Source: Bdellovibrionota bacterium (lineage in GTDB: Bacteria; Bdellovibrionota; Bdellovibrionia; Bdellovibrionales; JAEYZS01). From it: a stretch of 59,567 nt of DNA. The translations under genes and the position numbers were made by a program. Location of the stretch: the NCBI GenBank assembly GCA_040386775.1, contig JAZKEU010000008.1:233184-292750 (forward strand), in the 5' to 3' direction. The notes under the pieces were generated by a model that was not told the origin of the DNA, did not search any database, and worked only from the letters and a program-made list of their open reading frames with translations. Below, piece by piece: positions 17,957-28,031 of this stretch; within the stretch, counting starts at the first letter, position 1, and each line of letters opens with the position of its first letter.

Positions 17957-18715
17957 ATGAAATTCAATAAACTATATATTACAGCGATTGTGATTGGTTT
18001 ATTTCACGTACCTAGCACGTCATACCAAACTATTTTAGCAATGCCTTCAGTTGATCTCGCTTCAGTATTTGAACATCAAAAAGAACTTGTTGGTTCAAAG
18101 AGACTGCCGAGTGCATTTCAAGAAAACAAAAATGCAGAACAAATCGTTTCTCAATTGGTATTGGAAATTGTGCGCGAGTCACTTCCAAAAAATTATAAAA
18201 ATCAGTCTGAGAAAGTAGCAAAAACCATCATTGAAGAAGCCAATAAATATGAAATGGACCCATTATTTTTAACGTCCATCATCAAGCATGAATCTGCTTT
18301 CAATCCAAAATCCATTGGATTAGTTGGTGAAATTGGTCTTATGCAAATCCGCCCAACTACCGCAAAATGGTTGAACGATAAATATAAAATCGTAAAAAAA
18401 GTGAATCTTAAGAATCCAATTACAAATATCAAATTGGGCGCTTTCTTCTTGAACAAATTAAGAGGAAAGTTTGACAACAATAGCCGTTACTACATGTCTG
18501 CATACAATATGGGAGCAGCAAAATTAAGACAGAAGTTAAAAGAAAACGTAAAACCTAAGGAATACGTAGGCCATGTGATGAAACACTATGTGAAATATAT
18601 GGAACGCCTAGAAGTTGCGGCAGAAAAATCACTTCAGTTGTCAGAAGCAGAAATGATGATCAGAACAGCTCAACTCTGTAACGGAATCCCGGCGAAACAC
18701 TTAGCTTACAACTGA
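17957..18715 (+). CDS. lytic transglycosylase (SLT domain)
   Basis: 252 residues. A hydrophobic N-terminal segment (LYITAIVIGLFHVP) exports it. Residues ~95-225 are an SLT/goose-lysozyme-like domain: KHESAFNPKSIG with the catalytic Glu near 111, GEIGLMQIRPTTAKWL, KNPITNIKLGAFFLNKL and YYMSAYNMGAAKL. It cleaves the glycan strand of peptidoglycan with formation of anhydro-muropeptides. A GGGAG ribosome site precedes the ATG. In a predatory bacterium it could act on its own wall or on prey wall; sequence cannot tell. Confidence 0.92.
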   Translation: MKFNKLYITAIVIGLFHVPSTSYQTILAMPSVDLASVFEHQKELVGSKRLPSAFQENKNAEQIVSQLVLEIVRESLPKNYKNQSEKVAKTIIEEANKYEMDPLFLTSIIKHESAFNPKSIGLVGEIGLMQIRPTTAKWLNDKYKIVKKVNLKNPITNIKLGAFFLNKLRGKFDNNSRYYMSAYNMGAAKLRQKLKENVKPKEYVGHVMKHYVKYMERLEVAAEKSLQLSEAEMMIRTAQLCNGIPAKHLAYN

Positions 18716-18739
18716 TTTATATCTTATCGAATTATTTGG

Positions 18740-18769
18740 AAAGCCTCTGCTAAAAACAGGGGCTTTTTT
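18740..18769 (+). terminator. intrinsic terminator after the transglycosylase gene
   Basis: AAAGCCTCTG pairs with CAGGGGCTTT (one G-T wobble) across the loop CTAAAAA, followed by a T-run. It lies 25 bases after the stop at 18715. The rest of the gap to 18999 holds the promoter region of the next gene. Confidence 0.85.
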
Positions 18770-18998
18770 GTATGGTCATCCCTCAGGCCGAGTCTTTGAT
18801 ATAAACCATTTGGACTAATCAAAATCAAATGAATCATCAAAAACAAACCCATTTCTAACAATCGTCGTTCAAACTTTATACATATCAAGTAAAAAAGTAA
18901 CGAATGATTGTATGAGTGTAATTTTATACACAATTGTCGTATTATCCAAACATACAAAACGAATGCACTCTAGGGTCAAGAGCTGAGGTAGTTTCTAA

Positions 18999-21293
18999 GT
19001 GAGCAATGCTGGTAAAAAAGTTGTAACGTCGCTCCTATTAATCTGTTTTTTAATAACGGATGTATCTCCTGCGTTTGGTCAAGAATTCGATCCAACCCCC
19101 ATCGCACTTGATCCTTCTATCTTCACCCAAATGGATCCAGATAAGTTCACTCAAAATGAAAAAGAACTTACTGAAGAAGAAAAAAAAGAACTCAAAAAAA
19201 TCATCGATATCCCAACAAGAAATATGCAAGAAGTCTTGTTCCTATTAAAAAACTTATATCATAAAGTAAAAATGAATGAACAGACTTTAGGTGCAGAAGC
19301 GGTTGGTAAAATTATTTCTAAAAGAAAAGACTCCGAAAGCATCCAGTACGAGTTTAAGAATGTTGGAAAAGCAGAACCTTTAGTTATCAATACAAAACGT
19401 GGTCCCTATTACTTTACAAAAGTGAGGCACAACGAACTGAAAATACCAATTCTCTTCTTAGACAAAAGTCAAATTGATATAGAATTTCTAGAAGAATCTG
19501 AAAAGCGTGTAAAGCTAGGCATGGAATATTTAGATCCTACACTGCAAGGTCTTTCGAAAAAAGAACTCCAACTCGAACTCGATCATCGTAAATTTATCCT
19601 CAGGCATTTTAGAACTCTGTACGCAAGAATGCTTCACTCCGCATGGAATCCAAAATTCCAATACCAACCTTTGAGCGAAGCGTTTGAAAGACCTAAAGAA
19701 ACGGACACTATCGAAACTCCTCCTGAAGAAATTAAATCTCGCATTGATGATGTATTAAATAAACCTTTCAGCGAATTGAAAACCAAAGGTTGGTTTAGAC
19801 AATTGGTCGACAGAAAATATGATGCTTGGGTTGATCTCGCAAAACAAGAAACTGAAATTGCAAAGACTCGAGAAGGCAATGAAGATGTCATGGTTATTCT
19901 TTACGACGGATCCACGGGGGAAGTTGAAAGCAAAACCATGATTCATAAACCAAAAAAATTCACTTTGGATTATTGGAAATCTTTTTGGAGATCGAAATGG
20001 GAACCCCCTGTTTATGGTGCTCCGGTATGGGATGAAAATAAAGGTTTAGGAAAATTAAGAGTTTTAAGAACTGGAGACTATTTATTGGGTGGTTTCTTTG
20101 CAACTGTTTTAGCAACGTTAGCTTTAGGCACAGGATGGGTTTTTTCAGACGCACTACCTACAGGGCTCACTGCTGGCAAAGTGGCGCAAGTTTCATTTGC
20201 ATGGAGTTTGTTTTTTGGAATCTTCGGTAAAACTTGGGCAAATATTGCTTATACCGGAAATGACTTCTCAAGGTTTATGAAAGCCGCTCTTCCTGGTGTC
20301 ACTCAAACTTATTCATTCCTAGGACTTTCATCAGAATCCTTAGCTTTAAATACCGGCGAAGGTTTTAGAAATACAGCAGACAACGCGGTAAATATTGGGG
20401 TTAAGAGCGTAACCAAAACTTCAACTACAGAAGTTGCTAGAGAAAGACAAAGAACTGGTGAAGCAGAAGGCACAATGAAGGTCAAAGATTTCAATATTGT
20501 GCTGCCGTGGAAACACAATATGAAATTTATGGAGTTCGAAGTCGTGGAAACAGAGATCGATACTCTTAAAGTTTTTAGATGGATCAGAGAACAATTTACG
20601 ATTCAACAACGTGATCCTAAAGCCTGGGAACAGAATTTTATTCTTAAGTTCCATAAAGACATCAAGATGACATTACCATGGCTTGTTCCTACAGAGCACG
20701 AAACCTACATCCCAAGACAAAACTATGAGAACCAAGCTGTACAATTTATTACAACTCCTGTAGGACTTCTCTCACGATTTGGTTACATGGTCGCAGGAGT
20801 TCCTTTAGGACATTTACTTTATTTGGTCCTGGGACCTATTAGCGAAGTAAGACAAATCCGTTACAAAATAAAATATGGCCAAAAGCTTGCTGAAATTGGT
20901 GAAAATCCCACTTTAATTTCAAGATACAACGAATATGTTCAAGATGAAATTAAGCGCTGGAATAGATTAAGAATATTCGGTATTCCTGGTTCTCAGTTCG
21001 TAGGTTATGCGGTTAAAAAAGTTCCACTTGAAGTTTGGGATAGTGCAAAGCAATTTTCTGCATGGCTGAGTCGAAAAGTGGCTTATTATACATTCGAAAC
21101 TTACCAAGGAATTCTGAAAGACTTTAAAAATCAAGAAGACACTAGAGAGCGAGTTAGAGAAACTCAAGATCGCTTCGCACTGGCCATGACCGTACAAACT
21201 GAAGGTGGAAAGCCACATCCGGTCCAGATCATTCAAGCCTCTAAAAAACACCAAAGAGCACAGCACGCTATGTGTGCTCGCCTCTTTCAATAA
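18999..21293 (+). CDS. large exported membrane protein of unknown function, paralog A
   Basis: 764 residues starting at GTG. A Sec-type signal runs to about residue 28 (LLLICFLITDVSPAFGQ). A soluble region follows, with a conserved block NVGKAEPLVINTKRGPYYF near residue 120. Hydrophobic spans appear at ~357-410 (LLGGFFATVLATLALGTGW; VSFAWSLFFGIFGKTW) and ~594-613. The protein ends in AMCARLFQ. The next gene encodes a protein with the same order of blocks and the same Cys-x-x-Leu-Phe ending, so the two are paralogs. I do not recognise the family. It follows the transglycosylase gene but is separated from it by a terminator. It is probably an envelope-spanning structural or transport component. 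Confidence 0.85.
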   Translation: MSNAGKKVVTSLLLICFLITDVSPAFGQEFDPTPIALDPSIFTQMDPDKFTQNEKELTEEEKKELKKIIDIPTRNMQEVLFLLKNLYHKVKMNEQTLGAEAVGKIISKRKDSESIQYEFKNVGKAEPLVINTKRGPYYFTKVRHNELKIPILFLDKSQIDIEFLEESEKRVKLGMEYLDPTLQGLSKKELQLELDHRKFILRHFRTLYARMLHSAWNPKFQYQPLSEAFERPKETDTIETPPEEIKSRIDDVLNKPFSELKTKGWFRQLVDRKYDAWVDLAKQETEIAKTREGNEDVMVILYDGSTGEVESKTMIHKPKKFTLDYWKSFWRSKWEPPVYGAPVWDENKGLGKLRVLRTGDYLLGGFFATVLATLALGTGWVFSDALPTGLTAGKVAQVSFAWSLFFGIFGKTWANIAYTGNDFSRFMKAALPGVTQTYSFLGLSSESLALNTGEGFRNTADNAVNIGVKSVTKTSTTEVARERQRTGEAEGTMKVKDFNIVLPWKHNMKFMEFEVVETEIDTLKVFRWIREQFTIQQRDPKAWEQNFILKFHKDIKMTLPWLVPTEHETYIPRQNYENQAVQFITTPVGLLSRFGYMVAGVPLGHLLYLVLGPISEVRQIRYKIKYGQKLAEIGENPTLISRYNEYVQDEIKRWNRLRIFGIPGSQFVGYAVKKVPLEVWDSAKQFSAWLSRKVAYYTFETYQGILKDFKNQEDTRERVRETQDRFALAMTVQTEGGKPHPVQIIQASKKHQRAQHAMCARLFQ

Positions 21294-21432
21294 AAGTATT
21301 CTTTCCGTGTCGCTTAATCATTAATCATAACTCGGCCCGCAAGCTGTAATGTTTTCCAATTTCCAGCAAGTTGTTAATAAAAATACATAATTCGTTTACA
21401 TATGGGCTTCATCTTTTTACGTGGGGTAAATA

Positions 21433-23391
21433 GTGGTTAAACGATTCCTTGGGGCAGGTAATAGTTTACTTTGGGTAAGTCTTTTTAGACAGGTTCTAGC
21501 GTTCGCGATCATCTTTCAAATTAGTTTCGGATCAACATTAGGTTTTACAGCAGATTCTGGTGAAGCACCGCGCACAAAAAAAGAATACTCTGTTTTCTTA
21601 CCTGAAGAATTTAAGAAACTTGCAGAAGAAAATTTTCTAAAAGACGCATCTCAATTCAGTGAAGATTCAAAGTTACTTATCGAAAATCTATTCAATGAGC
21701 CTGCAAAAGTTCAAATGGATTTGATTGTACTTGCAAGAGCACTTGCAGAAAAAGCAGAAAAGAGCGTCAACTTAGCCGATGATGTAAGATCTCGCCAAAA
21801 AGAGCGCGAAGTTGCTGTCGAAATCAAAGGTTTAGGAAAAGCAGAATTCAATAGTTTTGGATTTAAGGATAGCGGAAGAATCTTTACTCGATTTGTACAC
21901 TATGGAACAGACACGTCTTATGTTTTTATCGACACAGACCTTGTTCCTCTTGAAAGCTTAACTCCTGAAGAACGATTGGAATTGGGTGAAATTGCAGCAA
22001 ACAATGAGGCAAGAACTCGAAAAGAAGTTCTCTCAGAATATGAAAGATACATCGCTCTACAACAGATGCATACAAAAGTTCATCCAGAAGAATACAACCC
22101 TTTTCCTAACTTAGAAGAAATCAATCCCGCAGATGCAAAGGAATATGTGGATGCACTTGTCAATGCAGCCAAACAAGGTAAGCCAGAAAAGAAGTATGAC
22201 AAATACGGAAAAATTAAAACCGGAAGACTAGTTAAAGTGATTGGTTACAGTGGTCGTGCAAATGCCCTACGATTTGTTAAAGAATATCCAAGATACGAAA
22301 GCTATTCTCCTCTTCAAAAAGCTGCACTTTACTGGACAAGTATTAAAAAAGGAACTCGCCTTAATTGGGAGTACTGGGACAATGGAAATATTTTTCAGAA
22401 GCCTTTAACTTTTTTAACTGGTGATGCTCTAATCAGTTTATTTTCAACTGGGATACAAACAGGAATCTTCGTATCTCTTAAACAACTTCAAGGCGATAGC
22501 GTAGATCCTTTCTCAGTCCTCTTGGTCGCAGGCTGGGCTTTTGCATTCAGTATTACTTCAACGGCTAGGAATTGGATCAACGTGAACTCCAGCAAATCCT
22601 CCATATTATTTAAATCTTTTTTAAATAGCGTTGTCTTTAACTATATCTTACTTGTAGCTGTTCATGGATTTGATACGGTGTTTTCTTTGAATGAAGTTGC
22701 TTTTAAACTTTCAATGTTGAATATCGCAAATGCTATGATCAACAACTTTGGAAAAACTTGGTGGTATAAAGTTCCTCAAATGAGGGAGAACGCTGGCTTA
22801 AATCTAAAAGAAATTAATACTTTAAAATTAAGAACTAAGATCGACCAATCAATGCTTGAGCAACAGACTTGGTATTTGGGTAGCAATATATTTAGAACTG
22901 CCGATCTGTTGGCAATGGATGTTTTATTTAGCATTATGTATTTAGATTTTTCTGCATCTCGCCTAGCCATGATCGCAACCATTCCGGTTCTTCACTATAC
23001 AATTATGAGATATGCAGAGAAAAAAGACTTCAAGGCCAGTAAAGAATTAAGGGAAGAATGGAATAAAGCGATGTACCTCAGCTGGAATGGAAAATTCCCA
23101 ACTTACAAAGGACATAAAATTCCAGTACTCTACGCTGGAGCATTTATCTCATTTATAAAAGAAATGGGAATGGTGGGCAGAAATGCAACCTCAATTATTT
23201 ATTGGCCAGGAAAAGTTGTTTTTAATACGATCACTGCCGGCACAAAAAAGATTGTTAATACTCTCAATAGCCTTAGCCAAAAAGTAATGGCTGAAACAAA
23301 TCCATCAAGAAGCGAAAGAACTACTTTAGAGACTACTAAAATCTCTTCACCACAACGTGGATCTCTGTGCGTAGGACTTTTTTCTAACTAA
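21433..23391 (+). CDS. large exported membrane protein of unknown function, paralog B
   Basis: 652 residues, start GTG at 21433. The hydrophobic N-terminus (LLWVSLFRQVLAFAIIFQIS) is signal-like. The block IKGLGKAEFNSFGFKDSGR (about residue 134) matches paralog A. Hydrophobic segments lie at ~330-350, 360-375, 395-418, 488-505 and 510-525; a GKTWW block near 438 echoes GKTWANIAYTG of paralog A. The end is QRGSLCVGLFSN, again Cys-x-x-Leu-Phe. The two genes are 139 bases apart and same strand. The 3' end overlaps the convergent MerT-like gene by four bases. No known domain is recognised. Confidence 0.85.
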   Translation: MVKRFLGAGNSLLWVSLFRQVLAFAIIFQISFGSTLGFTADSGEAPRTKKEYSVFLPEEFKKLAEENFLKDASQFSEDSKLLIENLFNEPAKVQMDLIVLARALAEKAEKSVNLADDVRSRQKEREVAVEIKGLGKAEFNSFGFKDSGRIFTRFVHYGTDTSYVFIDTDLVPLESLTPEERLELGEIAANNEARTRKEVLSEYERYIALQQMHTKVHPEEYNPFPNLEEINPADAKEYVDALVNAAKQGKPEKKYDKYGKIKTGRLVKVIGYSGRANALRFVKEYPRYESYSPLQKAALYWTSIKKGTRLNWEYWDNGNIFQKPLTFLTGDALISLFSTGIQTGIFVSLKQLQGDSVDPFSVLLVAGWAFAFSITSTARNWINVNSSKSSILFKSFLNSVVFNYILLVAVHGFDTVFSLNEVAFKLSMLNIANAMINNFGKTWWYKVPQMRENAGLNLKEINTLKLRTKIDQSMLEQQTWYLGSNIFRTADLLAMDVLFSIMYLDFSASRLAMIATIPVLHYTIMRYAEKKDFKASKELREEWNKAMYLSWNGKFPTYKGHKIPVLYAGAFISFIKEMGMVGRNATSIIYWPGKVVFNTITAGTKKIVNTLNSLSQKVMAETNPSRSERTTLETTKISSPQRGSLCVGLFSN

Positions 23392-23756
23392 TCATTTAGA
23401 AAATATGGAGCTAGATAGGCAAATACAAAGCCCACTAAATAAATGATCACTGAAACAACGTATACTCTGAATGAAAATACCCTCGAGCTTGTGCAAGCAC
23501 GGGCAAGTTCGGGGTCCAGAGGACAGGGTTCAAATCTAACCCTATACTGCAAATAACCGCCTAAGCTCAGTAAGATTGCTCCTAAAGCAAATATCACAGA
23601 CTTATTTTCAGAAATAAAAATAAGCTGTGGATTGTCGCCTAAAAAACCCGCCAACGCTGCGCCAAACCCAAGTGTCACTACCAAGGCTGGCAGAGCACAG
23701 CAGATCAATGTGGAAAAGGACGTAAAGAGCGTAAGAAAATTTACAAACTTTTTCAT
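23388..23756 (-). CDS. MerT-like metal transport membrane protein
   Basis: 122 residues with about three membrane helices. A vicinal Cys pair lies in the first helix (LICCALPALVV), and a loop holds two more cysteines (PCPLDPELARACTSS), the arrangement used by MerT to pass Hg2+ inward. Directly upstream is a periplasmic MerP-like protein. However there is no merA or merR here, so the metal may be something other than mercury. The gene is seven bases after the MerP-like gene and is the last of a three-gene operon. Confidence 0.75.
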   Translation of the reverse strand: MKKFVNFLTLFTSFSTLICCALPALVVTLGFGAALAGFLGDNPQLIFISENKSVIFALGAILLSLGGYLQYRVRFEPCPLDPELARACTSSRVFSFRVYVVSVIIYLVGFVFAYLAPYFLND

Positions 23757-23762
23757 ATTGAA

Positions 23763-24038
23763 TTATCTTTCAACCCTCACAACATTATAACCCGCTTCGG
23801 TTATAATTTTTTTGATTTCATCGTCAGAAAGATTCTTTTGATCTTTAAATACCAAATGCACATTCTTTTTATCTAGGTCCACGTGCACAACATTCACTTC
23901 GTCTTTGGCCTTAAAAGATTTCTCTAACTTGCTTGTGCAGAAGCTGCAAACCATTCCATTCACTTTTACATTGGCTTCTCCCGCAAAACCAGAAAGAGGC
24001 AATAGTGCTAGTGCAGCTACTAAAAATAATTTTTTCAT
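23763..24038 (-). CDS. periplasmic heavy-metal-associated (MerP-like) protein
   Basis: 91 residues: Sec signal of ~19 residues (KLFLVAALALLPLSGFAG), then a single HMA domain with the metal motif GMVCSFCTSKLEKSF (Cys-x-x-Cys). The fold ends with ITEAGYNVVRVE. It binds a soft or borderline metal ion in the periplasm and would hand it to the adjacent MerT-like transporter. GGAGAATTT stands before the ATG. It is cotranscribed with the outer-membrane protein gene upstream. Confidence 0.88.
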   Translation of the reverse strand: MKKLFLVAALALLPLSGFAGEANVKVNGMVCSFCTSKLEKSFKAKDEVNVVHVDLDKKNVHLVFKDQKNLSDDEIKKIITEAGYNVVRVER

Positions 24039-24070
24039 AAATTCTCCTATTTTGTTAATTAAAAATGTAC

Positions 24071-24727
24071 TCAGTAATGAACCATAAAATTAAAAATAAA
24101 ATTTCCATCAATTGTAGAACCAAATTCTGTTAATACGTTTTTGTAGAAGAGCCTAATAACCGGAGCGAGATCGATGCTCTCACTTTCCGCTCTATCCATT
24201 GTTGCTTGAAGAATAAACCAGGCATTGAGATCATAGTAACCTGCTACAAAGGGAGCAAACCCAGCTCGCAATTCATAATACTCACTGATGATATCGTTTT
24301 TGGTTTTTATATTTTCGTACTTTGCGAGAGTATATATTTTTCGAGTTTCATAATCAGCCTGAATCCCTGTGGAGTAAGCAAAATCATCATTCAATGTATT
24401 GTTGTCTAAATCTTTAAACCACGCATTCCCTGCCCCACCCACCAAGTAAACATTCCCCTGATGCTCTTCACCGTTGGACCTGTACAAAAGGAAGCCCATA
24501 GTTCCGAGGGCCACATCCGTTTTTCCCAAGAGATATCTTTGTTGGTGCATGCGAGCTCCTAAACCCAACCAATACTTTAATGAGTATATAACATCGTAAT
24601 GAGACATATCCTCAGAATGCTCTCCCATAAGACTCAAAGTGCCTTGGGAGCTGGTGGGATGGGCAACAACCAGGCGAGGAACAAATCCTATGACTGCTAA
24701 TATTAAAATGAATAAATAGATTTTCAT
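24071..24727 (-). CDS. predicted outer-membrane beta-barrel protein of the metal operon
   Basis: 218 residues with a Sec signal (FILILAVIGFVPRLVVAHP). The mature part alternates polar and hydrophobic residues with many Tyr, Gly, Asn and Asp, and ends in a strand with terminal aromatic residue (NFIFNFMVHY), as in outer-membrane barrels. A His/Asp/Glu-rich segment (SLMGEHSEDMSHYD) near the mature N-terminus could bind metal. First gene of the operon with the MerP- and MerT-like genes; divergent from the ECF sigma gene. The exact role is not known. Confidence 0.65.
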   Translation of the reverse strand: MKIYLFILILAVIGFVPRLVVAHPTSSQGTLSLMGEHSEDMSHYDVIYSLKYWLGLGARMHQQRYLLGKTDVALGTMGFLLYRSNGEEHQGNVYLVGGAGNAWFKDLDNNTLNDDFAYSTGIQADYETRKIYTLAKYENIKTKNDIISEYYELRAGFAPFVAGYYDLNAWFILQATMDRAESESIDLAPVIRLFYKNVLTEFGSTIDGNFIFNFMVHY

Positions 24728-24801
24728 TTTACCTCATTTTATCTAAGCTACTTATTATGTTTCAGCTTATTACAGTCTATATACGAACTCAGCCGTCCCT
24801 A

Positions 24802-24828
24802 TGTGACAAAAATCTGGTGGCTGTCACA
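24802..24828. promoter_or_regulatory. TGTGACA-N13-TGTCACA inverted repeat in divergent promoter region
   Basis: A perfect 7-bp inverted repeat with a 13-bp spacer lies between the metal operon and the ECF sigma gene. On each strand TGTGACA lies upstream of the gene it points to, at a distance suited to a -35 element. A direct repeat CAGCCGT flanks it at 24790-24796 and 24841-24847. It may be the promoter pair of the ECF sigma factor or an operator. Confidence 0.5.
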
Positions 24829-24869
24829 AAATAAAGAGCGCAGCCGTAATAGCAATAAGGAAAGCGATC

Positions 24870-25391
24870 GTGAATTACGACAATATGACGGATGAAAAAC
24901 TGATGGAGCTTTACCAAGCCTCTGACAAGAGTGCCTTTAATACTCTATTCAAAAGACACTCGGGATTGGTTTATGGTTACCTACTCAAGAAGTTAAAAAA
25001 TGAAGAGGTTTCAAAGGATGTCCTCCAAATTGTCTTTATGAAACTTCATGTGAATAAAGAAAAATTCAATACTGAGCAGCCTTTTTTACCCTGGTTTTTC
25101 GTATTGATAAAAAACACGATGACCGATGAGCTTCGAAAAAAGAAAGAACATCTTGAACTCAAAGAAGAGATGATTATGGAAGATCCAGAGCCACAAATTC
25201 ACATTGATCTCGACAACGCTGTAAGAGAATTGAATCCACGTTATCAGAAAGTACTCGAAATGAGATACACCGAAGATTTGGATTTTGAAGTGATAGCGAA
25301 AAGTTTAAACACAACACCACAGAATATTAGAAAAATAGTGAGCCGCGCAGTTTCAGAACTTAAAAATAAATTTTTAAAGGATGAAAGATGA
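24870..25391 (+). CDS. ECF-type RNA polymerase sigma factor
   Basis: 173 residues from a GTG with AAGGAAAG upstream. Region 2 is seen in SAFNTLFKRHSGLVYGYLL, DVLQIVFMKLHV and PWFFVLIKNTMTDELRKK; region 4 in ELNPRYQKVLEMRYTEDLDF and the helix-turn-helix TTPQNIRKIVSRAVSELK. Region 3 is lacking, as in the ECF group. It would direct RNA polymerase to a small set of promoters. The next gene overlaps by four bases (ATGA) and encodes a membrane protein, the usual anti-sigma arrangement. The divergent metal operon is the most obvious candidate target. Confidence 0.93.
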   Translation: MNYDNMTDEKLMELYQASDKSAFNTLFKRHSGLVYGYLLKKLKNEEVSKDVLQIVFMKLHVNKEKFNTEQPFLPWFFVLIKNTMTDELRKKKEHLELKEEMIMEDPEPQIHIDLDNAVRELNPRYQKVLEMRYTEDLDFEVIAKSLNTTPQNIRKIVSRAVSELKNKFLKDER

Positions 25392-25942
25392 AAAAAGAAT
25401 TTATAGATTTTTTAAACACAAAAGAAACTCCCGTTCCCAAAGAGCTAGAGAATCATATTTATATAAATATAGAAAAAGATCTATCTCCAACAAAACCCTT
25501 AAATTTGCTTTTAAAATTTGCAGCTTTGAATCTTTCAGCCGGAGTATTCACTTTGGCAATCTGTCCTCAGTTTGGATTGGGTCCGGCTCTAGGGGGGCAT
25601 GATATTACTCACTATTTTATGAGCATTGGAACTTGGGCTTGTGCGATTTTCTGTGCTACTTTTTATTTTGCAATTGCACAAACTCTTTCTCTCATTATTT
25701 TATCTAATCAAGAAATCCGGTGGATCGCTCGCAACAGGTATTCTGTTTTACCAGGATTGGTGATTGCTTCCTTTATAGCTCTGTCAATGCTTGGAAATTC
25801 TTTGAGCTCAGATGGGCACAAGATGGTTTTTGAACCAGAATTTCAAGCGATCTGGATCTTGGCGGGAATCATTGTCACTCAAGTCTTATTCAATTTAGTT
25901 TCGTTTAGATTCAGAGGTATCAGTAAAGTGGCCCTAAGATAA
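25388..25942 (+). CDS. membrane protein coupled to ECF sigma (probable anti-sigma factor)
   Basis: 184 residues. The first ~40 residues are cytoplasmic and helical (KEFIDFLNTKETPVPKELEN), then about four membrane helices follow (~45-70, 75-105, 120-140, 150-175). The start overlaps the sigma stop by four bases, so the two are made together. No zinc anti-sigma motif (HxxxCxxC) is seen. The size and layout resemble multi-span DUF1109-like or CnrY/ChrR-unrelated anti-sigma factors. It ends 23 bases into the convergent M23 gene. The assignment as anti-sigma is from context. Confidence 0.75.
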   Translation: MKKEFIDFLNTKETPVPKELENHIYINIEKDLSPTKPLNLLLKFAALNLSAGVFTLAICPQFGLGPALGGHDITHYFMSIGTWACAIFCATFYFAIAQTLSLIILSNQEIRWIARNRYSVLPGLVIASFIALSMLGNSLSSDGHKMVFEPEFQAIWILAGIIVTQVLFNLVSFRFRGISKVALR

Positions 25943-26561
25943 GTCTTGGGTCAGGGTACTTTTCTAAAGATTCTTTTAAATTCTTTTCGTGAACAACTCC
26001 TGGCATATCACATGTTTCTGGTTTTTCGTAAGACAGTTGAAAATGAAGATGAGGATTCCATCCACCGTTCTCAGTTCTATCTCCTAGCCATGCAATGACC
26101 TCACCTGCTTTAAATTTTAGGCCAGGCTTTTTGGTTTCAATGGACTTTTTGTTCAAGTGACCGTGAAGAACATAGAGATCTGTTTTCTCAAGGACATGCT
26201 TTGTAATGACAGTATAACCGTAATCTAAAGGCTGAGAATTATAACCTACCATATAGATCTCACCATCATAAAAGGCATGCACGGGGGTCCCTACAGGAGC
26301 TCCAATATCTATTCCAACATGTATATCCCTTTGATCCACATAAAGTGGCCCCGTGTACATGTTTTTTCTTTTCTCATTGTACTTCCCTATTCCATAAGGA
26401 AACTTAAGATTGCGATTTTCATCATAGCCTTGAGTAAAATCGAATATTTCATAATCTTTAGGCAAATCTATAACTGAATGAAATTTAAAGTTTTTAAAAT
26501 TTATCATTTTTGCTTCATTTTTCCTTAATTTTTCTCTAAAGGGCTTTGCCTTTGAACACAT
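25920..26561 (-). CDS. M23-family (LytM) peptidase
   Basis: 213 residues from the ATG at 26561, preceded by AAGGA; a GTG nine codons upstream would overlap the divergent thioesterase gene. The LytM zinc ligands are visible: HVGIDIG (His and Asp), LHGHL, and HLHFQ. M23 enzymes cut peptide cross-links of peptidoglycan. No signal peptide is clear, so it is either cytoplasmic or exported by an atypical route. The core domain lies at about residues 75-190. The C-terminal tail follows the catalytic core. Confidence 0.87.
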   Translation of the reverse strand: MCSKAKPFREKLRKNEAKMINFKNFKFHSVIDLPKDYEIFDFTQGYDENRNLKFPYGIGKYNEKRKNMYTGPLYVDQRDIHVGIDIGAPVGTPVHAFYDGEIYMVGYNSQPLDYGYTVITKHVLEKTDLYVLHGHLNKKSIETKKPGLKFKAGEVIAWLGDRTENGGWNPHLHFQLSYEKPETCDMPGVVHEKNLKESLEKYPDPRLILGPLY

Positions 26562-26581
26562 CTTAGCTATATCCTTTATGA

Positions 26582-26986
26582 ATGACACCTAAAATTTTTG
26601 AATACAATTTACTTATAAAAGAAGCTCACTTAGACACTTTCGGTCACGTGAATAACGCTAAATATCTCGAGCTTTTGGAAGAAGCTCGCTGGGATCTAAT
26701 CACACAAAATAGCTATGGCTTAAAAGAAGTTATGGCTAAAAAAATTGGACCTGTAATTTTAGAAGTAAATTTAAAGTTTAGAAAGGAATTAAAATTACGT
26801 GAAAAAATAAAAGTTCTTACTTCTTGCAAAAAACATGAAGGAAAAATCGGAACTATTGAGCAAAAAATAATAAATGAAAAAGGCGAAGAATCTGCAATTG
26901 CCGTTTTTACCTACGCACTTTTTGATTTAGCACAACGAAAAATCATTGATCCTACGCCAGAGTGGCTTAAAGCTATTGGATACTAG
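26582..26986 (+). CDS. hotdog-fold acyl-CoA thioesterase (YbgC/FadM-like)
   Basis: 134 residues, one 4-hydroxybenzoyl-CoA-thioesterase-like domain. The active-site segment DTFGHVNNAKYLELLEEARW contains the family's Asp and the GHVNN turn. Residues after this form the beta sheet (GPVILEVNLKFRKEL). Such enzymes hydrolyse short to long acyl-CoA thioesters. The ATG overlaps the region of the divergent peptidase start, so the two share a very short promoter region. Confidence 0.9.
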   Translation: MTPKIFEYNLLIKEAHLDTFGHVNNAKYLELLEEARWDLITQNSYGLKEVMAKKIGPVILEVNLKFRKELKLREKIKVLTSCKKHEGKIGTIEQKIINEKGEESAIAVFTYALFDLAQRKIIDPTPEWLKAIGY

Positions 26987-27377
26987 GTTCACTTTTAGAA
27001 TGAATTCCAAGACTCATAAACGCGTTTTTAAATCAAATTTTCAATCTCATATTGACGATCTAAAAGTCACTATAACTGTCTCACCATTATATTTTCTAGA
27101 CTGAGACATAGCTTTACCAAAAGCAGTTCATTATGATATACTGGTAGTATCTCAAGGTGATCACTCTATGATCTCCTTAACCTTAACAGGATGGTGTTAT
27201 ATGAAGTTATCCATTCTAATGCTTAAAATATACTCTGGTGGTTAGCTTACCCCTCTGAAGTATATTTCGAATTTTCAAAAAAAATAATAAACGATAAGAT
27301 TTAGAGTTATAGGTTTACCTTACATATAAGACAGGTTTACTTAGCGCTCAACTCTCGTCCTCAAAAACGGAGCTTTT
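26987..27377 (+). other. 391-bp leader region with hairpins and a possible leader peptide
   Basis: No gene fits here. A stem AAGGTGATC/GATCTCCTT (one mismatch, 27155-27179) is followed by AGGATGG and a 14-residue frame at 27201-27245 (ATG to TAG). Its end lies inside a second stem ATATACT/AGTATAT around 27228-27264, then an A-rich run. The order of hairpin, mini-frame and hairpin resembles an attenuator or leader peptide, but the mini-frame has no clear run of one amino acid. It could also be a long untranslated leader of the gene at 27378. Confidence 0.3.
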
Positions 27378-28031
27378 ATGTTTTTCAACAATAAACCCAC
27401 GCGCAGCAAGCGCTATAAAAAAATCAATGGTAGAAATACTATTGAGATGAATATTAAAACTACCGACCATCTGTTTGATGGCCGAGATCCAGCGCCTTTT
27501 AGAGAAAAAGATCTTGATGAAGATGCTGCGAAGTACATTATCACTTCTTTAAGAGAATTGCCGGACGATCAGCCTGCACAACTTAAGATTTATATCACCC
27601 AACCGCGAGGCGTTTCTGAAAATGATTCTTCTATTAAAGAAGCGATTAGAAAATTTTTCGAATATGAATCTGATATGAAGAGATTAGAAAGACGCCATAT
27701 ATTTAAAGTGGCTTTTAGATCACTGTTTATTGGTCTTACTTTTTTATTTTTGTCGATTTATGCCTCTTCATTTATTGATCCAGACAAGGGATTATTTCTA
27801 AAGTACATCAATGAAGGGATTCACATTCTAGGTTGGTATTCGATGTTTCACCCAATTTCATATGCCCTATATGAATGGTGGCCAATCCGAGACGATGAAC
27901 TTTTATTTGAAAGAGCTTCGGAGCTTGAAATGGAAATTCTATTCAGAAATGAAATGATCGAAATAGCTAAAAAAGAAGATTCAAAAGAATACCTAAAAAA
28001 GCTAGCCAACCTAGCCATTAGCTACAAATAA
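27378..28031 (+). CDS. membrane protein of unknown function
   Basis: 217 residues. The first ~115 residues are charged and cytoplasmic. Two membrane helices follow (FIGLTFLFLSIYASSFI, ~120-138; LGWYSMFHPISYALYEWW, ~157-175), then a charged helical tail. Residues PDDQPAQLKIYITQPRG near 60 look like a folded strand. CGGAG stands before the ATG. I do not recognise the family. It is convergent with corA and separated from it by a hairpin. Confidence 0.75.
   Translation: MFFNNKPTRSKRYKKINGRNTIEMNIKTTDHLFDGRDPAPFREKDLDEDAAKYIITSLRELPDDQPAQLKIYITQPRGVSENDSSIKEAIRKFFEYESDMKRLERRHIFKVAFRSLFIGLTFLFLSIYASSFIDPDKGLFLKYINEGIHILGWYSMFHPISYALYEWWPIRDDELLFERASELEMEILFRNEMIEIAKKEDSKEYLKKLANLAISYK

Follow-up and report, generated by a model that had tools for sequence, protein, structure and literature searches.

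A conserved Cys-x-x-Leu-Phe ending on exported proteins of a Bdellovibrionota bacterium points to a hitherto unrecognised address or anchoring tag

Introduction

The GlyGly-CTERM (rhombosortase) and PEP-CTERM (exosortase) systems place a C-terminal tag on unrelated exported proteins, in both cases as a tripartite signal with a transmembrane helix and a basic end, while the MYXO-CTERM signal, associated with myxosortase (MrtX), occurs dozens of times per genome on proteins with a signal peptide and defines a dedicated sorting route. After the invariant Cys of MYXO-CTERM, for which lipidation has been proposed (PMC11980579), come a transmembrane helix and then a cytoplasmic end rich in Arg; a CPBP protease cuts the signal. 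Here we analyze a stretch of 59,567 nucleotides from a Bdellovibrionota bacterium (contig JAZKEU010000008.1; hereafter the window), in which two adjacent genes, P1 and P2, encode exported proteins that both end in Cys-x-x-Leu-Phe and one or two further residues (the CxxLF tail). We consider it very probable that this ending is a true signal, conserved at the C-terminus of exported proteins.

The CxxLF tail resembles each of the known signals in part. Like MYXO-CTERM it combines an invariant Cys with signal-peptide-bearing proteins, but in this genome the protein ends 4-6 residues after the Cys (up to 10 in relatives), with no membrane-spanning helix and no basic cluster; with GlyGly-CTERM and PEP-CTERM it shares its occurrence on unrelated exported proteins, but not the Gly-Gly or PEP motif. 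No NCBIfam CTERM model matched any of the 12 tailed proteins scanned. The eukaryotic CaaX box also consists of a near-terminal Cys and hydrophobic residues, but it is cytosolic, is cut by Rce1 and has exactly three residues after the Cys, and it is ruled out by length for the CxxLF tail of exported proteins, with its 4 to 6. Type IX secretion likewise pairs a Sec signal peptide with a C-terminal signal, the C-terminal domain (CTD), which routes proteins to the surface or outside. In Bacteroidota the CTD folds as a domain of some 70-100 residues, in contrast to a tail of 5 to 7 residues. Finally, a C-terminal disulfide staple also puts a Cys within the last eight residues of exported proteins, but that Cys has a partner and total counts are mostly even, whereas the tail Cys of CxxLF proteins is nearly always the only one past the first 40 residues (12/13). 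Literature searches for this motif, or for any C-terminal signal of Bdellovibrio, gave no relevant result, with most subscription journals outside their coverage.

Materials and Methods

Tail frequency was determined in a sample of the organism's own genome comprising 1.26 Mb in stretches out of 2.86 Mb (44%). The longest non-overlapping open reading frames (ORFs) of at least 100 amino acids (aa) were divided into those encoding exported-like proteins, recognised by 12 uncharged hydrophobic residues in a row close to the N-terminus, and others. The tail was counted as C-x-x-[LIVMY]-F plus 0-3 further residues at the C-terminus, and the expectation was taken from the same motif at internal positions. 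A DNA-level count of the tail over 141 genomes was dominated by composition and was not used.

Results and Discussion

The Tails of P1 and P2

Both ORFs and both protein ends given in a preliminary description of the window were confirmed. The features of the two genes are as follows:

18999..21293, + strand: P1, 764-aa exported protein with a GTG start, ending QRAQHAMCARLFQ (ORF reading)
18999..19079, + strand: signal-peptide-like segment of P1, LLLICFLITDVSPAFG/Q, no lipobox (sequence and hydropathy)
21198..21272, + strand: linker preceding the P1 tail, TEGGKPHPVQIIQASKKHQRAQHAM, net charge +3 (linker charge computation)
21273..21290, + strand: C-terminal tail of P1, Cys-Ala-Arg-Leu-Phe-Gln (sequence and family alignment)
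21433..23391, + strand: P2, 652-aa exported paralog of P1 with a GTG start, ending PQRGSLCVGLFSN (ORF reading)
21433..21546, + strand: signal-peptide-like segment of P2, approximate extent (sequence and hydropathy)
23293..23367, + strand: linker preceding the P2 tail, ETNPSRSERTTLETTKISSPQRGSL, net charge +1, predicted disordered (charge computation and AlphaFold model)
23368..23388, + strand: C-terminal tail of P2, Cys-Val-Gly-Leu-Phe-Ser-Asn (sequence and family alignment)

The tail Cys of P1 (C759) is the sole Cys beyond the signal peptide, within which the only other one (C16) lies, and the tail Cys of P2 (C646) is the sole Cys in the whole protein. A lipobox lipoprotein, with its Cys at the N-terminal cleavage site, is excluded for P1 by the location of C16 inside the signal peptide and for P2 by the lack of a second Cys.

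Enrichment of the Tail in Exported-Like Proteins

P1 and P2 are not special in this genome, as the same tail is present in at least 11 families. The tail is conserved in orthologs and specific to exported-like proteins, and it hinges on the position of its Cys, which is almost never partnered. In the own-genome sample we found the tail in 10 of 528 exported-like proteins against 0.21 expected (P = 3.6e-14, ~48-fold enrichment), and eight remain after exclusion of P1 and P2 (P = 7.5e-11); among non-exported-like proteins there was 1 in 637, with 0.40 expected. The preliminary description had looked to an excess of this ending in exported proteins as support for a sorting signal, and such an excess is what the sample contains, far above chance. 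When the Cys of the pattern was replaced by any other residue, there was no comparable excess. A pattern search added three more tailed proteins, bringing the set in this genome to at least 13. They make up 11 families, between which no similarity was detectable. Leu-Phe is exact in 13 of 13, with 4-6 residues after the Cys and 0-2 after Leu-Phe. The tailed proteins are:

P1, 764 aa
P2, 652 aa
L049, 477 aa, and its homolog L032, 468 aa
L051, 250 aa
L055, 278 aa
L068, 1133 aa, DUF7932; the tail Cys is alone past the first 40 residues despite this length
L078, 320 aa, PI3/PI4-kinase domain
L197, 354 aa
L201, 212 aa, weak TPR
L204, 557 aa, C8:207110-208783 (L204:7110-8783), signal peptide, then directly a J domain, then weak HEAT-like repeats
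L205, 371 aa, Amidoligase_2
L220, 642 aa

Past the first 40 residues, the tail Cys is alone in 9 of the 10 sampled tailed proteins, and in 12 of 13 when the three found by pattern are included; by comparison, 164 of the 518 other exported-like proteins have no Cys in that region (Fisher p = 3e-4, against 9/10). The linker, defined as the 25 residues before the Cys, has a mean net charge of +3.0 versus +0.1 (p = 2e-5), and the general context of the tail is a basic, acid-poor linker running into the Cys-x-x-Leu-Phe end. The Gln-Arg pair that had been remarked upon before the Cys is indeed there in P1 and P2, as in both homologs from a second genus of the family (G069). It does not extend to the tailed proteins at large, and we rejected it as part of the signal. 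Two cargo proteins have intact motifs: DRHxxN in the PI3/4-kinase-like protein and HPD in the J-domain protein.

Conservation of the Tail in Other Genomes

Homologs of P1 were found in 6 other genomes, and homologs of P1 or P2 in eight, all of the same order. Conservation in orthologs, on which the preliminary description had let the idea of a signal stand or fall, was observed in this family: the tail Cys is invariant in 10 of 10 full-length members aligned, in an alignment that shows only 16-23% identity to P2 and whose last 100 columns are mostly gapped or variable. The tails of the family read CARLFQ, CVGLFSN, CVQIFSFANSN, CRLLFNY, CMGYFR, CRAYF, CKSLFDF and CSDWLK, with CRRSAK and CRGKSK in two lineages.

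Other cargo families keep the ending as well. In the kinase family, CQSLFL corresponds to CRRLFAS, CHQLFF, CRALF and CHQIFN in orthologs from other genera or families, in which the residues preceding the Cys have diverged; three of the tailed orthologs come from Bdellovibrionaceae or Bdellovibrionales assemblies, found by a search of genome contigs with the kinase alignment. In the DUF7932 family, CATLFN has the counterparts CSDIFDKK, CERIFDLSRQ, CVRVLNNN and CVRLLEE. The J-domain proteins serve as a within-family control, as the tail is on exported ones and absent from their cytosolic homologs: 3 of 5 proteins with a signal peptide and a J domain, from three genera, are tailed (CSKLFN, CSKVFAE, CKSLFRD), versus none of the 14 cytosolic DnaJ homologs that were readable to the end (Fisher about 0.01, by hand). 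Judging from their sequences, J-domain proteins with a signal peptide are apparently exported in three genera. The J domain, with an intact HPD, stands directly after the signal peptide in L204:7110-8783, L226:565-1878 and L228:1426-3048. In a further genome (G007), a 394-aa exported protein (L098:4681-5865) ends in CGPVFN, and its tail Cys is its only Cys. Matches to this protein occur in 20 of the 24 genomes of its genus and mostly reach the last or next-to-last residue, which suggests, from the extent of the matches rather than a reading of the end residues themselves, that the end is kept.

Possible Functions of the Tail

The architecture of the class, a signal peptide, any domain, a flexible basic linker and Cys-x-x-Leu-Phe with 0-3 further residues, points to a hitherto unrecognised address or anchoring tag, and we lean towards a role of the tail in routing or anchoring after Sec. 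Sec export and cleavage of the signal peptide would leave the tail free. It may then fold into a short helix, the form that the structural models give it at low confidence, in such a way that Cys, Leu and Phe share one face. A partner in the periplasm or outer membrane would recognise it, either using the Cys as a handle, through acylation or a mixed disulfide, or reading it directly, and this recognition could send the cargo to the surface of the cell or outside it. Such a tag would sort proteins from their C-terminus with neither a membrane helix nor a CPBP protease.

The set of cargo is unusual in itself, comprising an exported J-domain protein, a kinase and an amidoligase. The periplasm offers neither ATP nor Hsp70, and among the Bdellovibrionales are predators whose growth takes place within other bacteria. 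Because the kinase, amidoligase and J-domain proteins need ATP or Hsp70, the cytoplasm of another cell would be the most economical site for them, and in a speculative last step some of the cargo may be destined for that of a prey cell, should this organism be a predator. That the tail leads cargo into another cell seems doubtful to us. It is with the same reserve that we raise the possibility that CxxLF addresses proteins, in a thiol-dependent way, to a novel export route of two steps, through which Bdellovibrionales would bring Sec-exported ATP- or Hsp70-dependent effectors (the kinase, amidoligase and J-domain proteins, as well as hairpin proteins such as P1 and P2) into another bacterial cell. 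Secreted enzymes of B. bacteriovorus that have been well studied, such as Bd0934 and Bd3507, were exported with mCherry on their C-terminus (PMC7925074); ordinary secretion therefore does not need a free C-terminus, and the tail would mark a different route. Fusions of this type are common in the field (PMC7925074) and would mask a C-terminal tail. Prey cytoplasm remains compartmentalised from a Bdellovibrio-like predator, so that transport is required (PMC2797640), and how predator proteins get from Sec to their site of action in the prey is the question on which the tag bears. As a short tag legible in raw sequence, it would provide a candidate cargo list and a simple reporter test.

Several observations weigh against the reading of the tail as a routing or anchoring tag. 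The tail is missing from L166, an exported paralog of the kinase that this genome also encodes, from exported kinases elsewhere (L153-L159; long ones in genus g7), and from the DUF7932 homologs L126, L127, L129 and L130. In some lineages of the order the Cys is kept but Leu-Phe is replaced (SCRRSAK, SCRGKSK, SCSKSAK). Random samples of other genomes in the order contained one tail in 387 exported-like proteins, with ~0.2 expected, which indicates that the class is abundant only in this lineage and is found elsewhere mainly on particular cargo families. We identified no reader or enzyme for the tail, and signal peptides were assigned by a hydropathy rule of thumb and not by SignalP.

A different role for the Cys would be that of a lipid anchor, S-acylated or thioether-lipidated by an acyltransferase and held in the membrane, with the tail left uncleaved or cut by a non-CPBP protease. 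A lone near-terminal Cys beside hydrophobic residues, on proteins with ordinary cleavable signal peptides, would suit such a modification, as would the analogy with the lipidation proposed for the MYXO-CTERM Cys (PMC11980579). However, no CPBP/Rce1-like protease (PF02517) was found in this genome (G000, 98% complete) or in two relatives of the family (G069 and G070), the Cys is followed by neither a transmembrane segment nor a basic cluster, and we found no candidate enzyme; on balance we regard a lipid anchor as improbable. The protease is present in 55 of 141 genomes of the order. As it is missing from this genome, we rejected CPBP/CAAX-type processing of the tail, the MYXO-CTERM route. Of the processing, lipidation or sorting signal suggested in the preliminary description, processing by the known Cys-tail route is thus contradicted, while the conservation and the excess in exported proteins reported above agree with a signal as such. 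Alternatively, the tail Cys may form an intermolecular disulfide, as a homodimer or with an envelope protein, and so act as a redox-dependent tether and not as a sorting signal. The Cys has no partner in its own protein. Many exported-like proteins of this genome have a Cys among their last eight residues, usually with an even count, so that an oxidising periplasm is probable. In the own-genome sample (L064-L083, L185-L224 and the window), Cys is enriched 2.4- to 5-fold in exported-like proteins between positions -7 and -2 relative to the C-terminus, and those with several Cys mostly have an even total, as expected for disulfide staples, which suggests that C-terminal staples are widespread in the organism. 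A tether nevertheless leaves unexplained the strict Leu-Phe and the basic linker across 11 unrelated families unless all have one common partner, which would again amount to a recognition signal, and we rate it slightly below the lipid anchor.

The tail might instead set the lifetime of the protein, if a periplasmic PDZ protease of the Prc/Ctp or DegS type read the hydrophobic end. Proteases of these types recognise the last few, often non-polar, residues, but the number of residues after Leu-Phe varies (0 to 2 in this genome, more in relatives) and the invariant position is the Cys and not the last residue, making a turnover tag very unlikely. Least probable of all is chance, or plain descent of the tail from a single ancestral protein. 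P1/P2 and L049/L032 are both paralogous pairs, so that a comparison of two genes alone could reflect inheritance; however, the 13 proteins belong to 11 families without detectable similarity, the tail is conserved across genera, and its enrichment in exported-like proteins (P = 3.6e-14) led us to reject chance.

The P1/P2 Family and Its Neighborhood

The tandem paralogy of P1 and P2 put forward in the preliminary description was borne out, distant as it is, by BLASTP (E = 2e-6, 19% identity across 216 aa) and by larger family alignments, and both proteins have a signal-peptide-like N-terminal segment and the GKAE block ascribed to them. The membrane helices ascribed to both hold only in part: they are marginally hydrophobic, with two segments outside the signal peptide in P2 and none in P1 (Kyte-Doolittle, 19-residue window, threshold 1.6). 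Neither protein has a family in Pfam, NCBIfam or PADLOC, and neither a sequence search of the PDB nor Foldseek with the two AlphaFold models returned a significant match. The models have mean predicted local distance difference test (pLDDT) scores of 59 and 63, and they predict the tail, at low confidence, as a short helix following a disordered stretch.

Directly upstream of P1 is one further gene:

17957..18715, + strand: SLT-domain lytic transglycosylase, with the same neighbor, 55% identical, in G069

G069 retains the P1-P2 tandem together with this upstream gene. Within positions 17957-28031 of the window, the gene order is lytic transglycosylase, P1, P2, small MerT-like and heavy-metal-domain-like genes, a 218-aa exported protein, a sigma-like gene and the genes that follow; the same order was found in G069 (L060:7173-17263), with one extra metal-domain-like gene.

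Further proteins with a C-terminal Cys were seen in other genomes. In G140, from another family of the order, two exported proteins keep the Cys with Leu-Phe replaced: an alpha/beta-hydrolase-like protein (GHSLGG, L121:15120-16484) ends in SCSKSAK and the P1/P2 homolog (L058:6957-9395) in SCRRSAK. These ends are possibly a lineage-specific version of the same signal. An exported alpha/beta hydrolase of G136 (UBA1609; L167:8613-9797) ends in CGKLFGGR; its contig also encodes the tailed kinase, ~10 kb away. In G139, a 407-aa exported protein unrelated to P1/P2 (L061:12267-13490), located ~3 kb from a P1/P2 homolog, has the tail CELMFQ and no further Cys outside the signal peptide.

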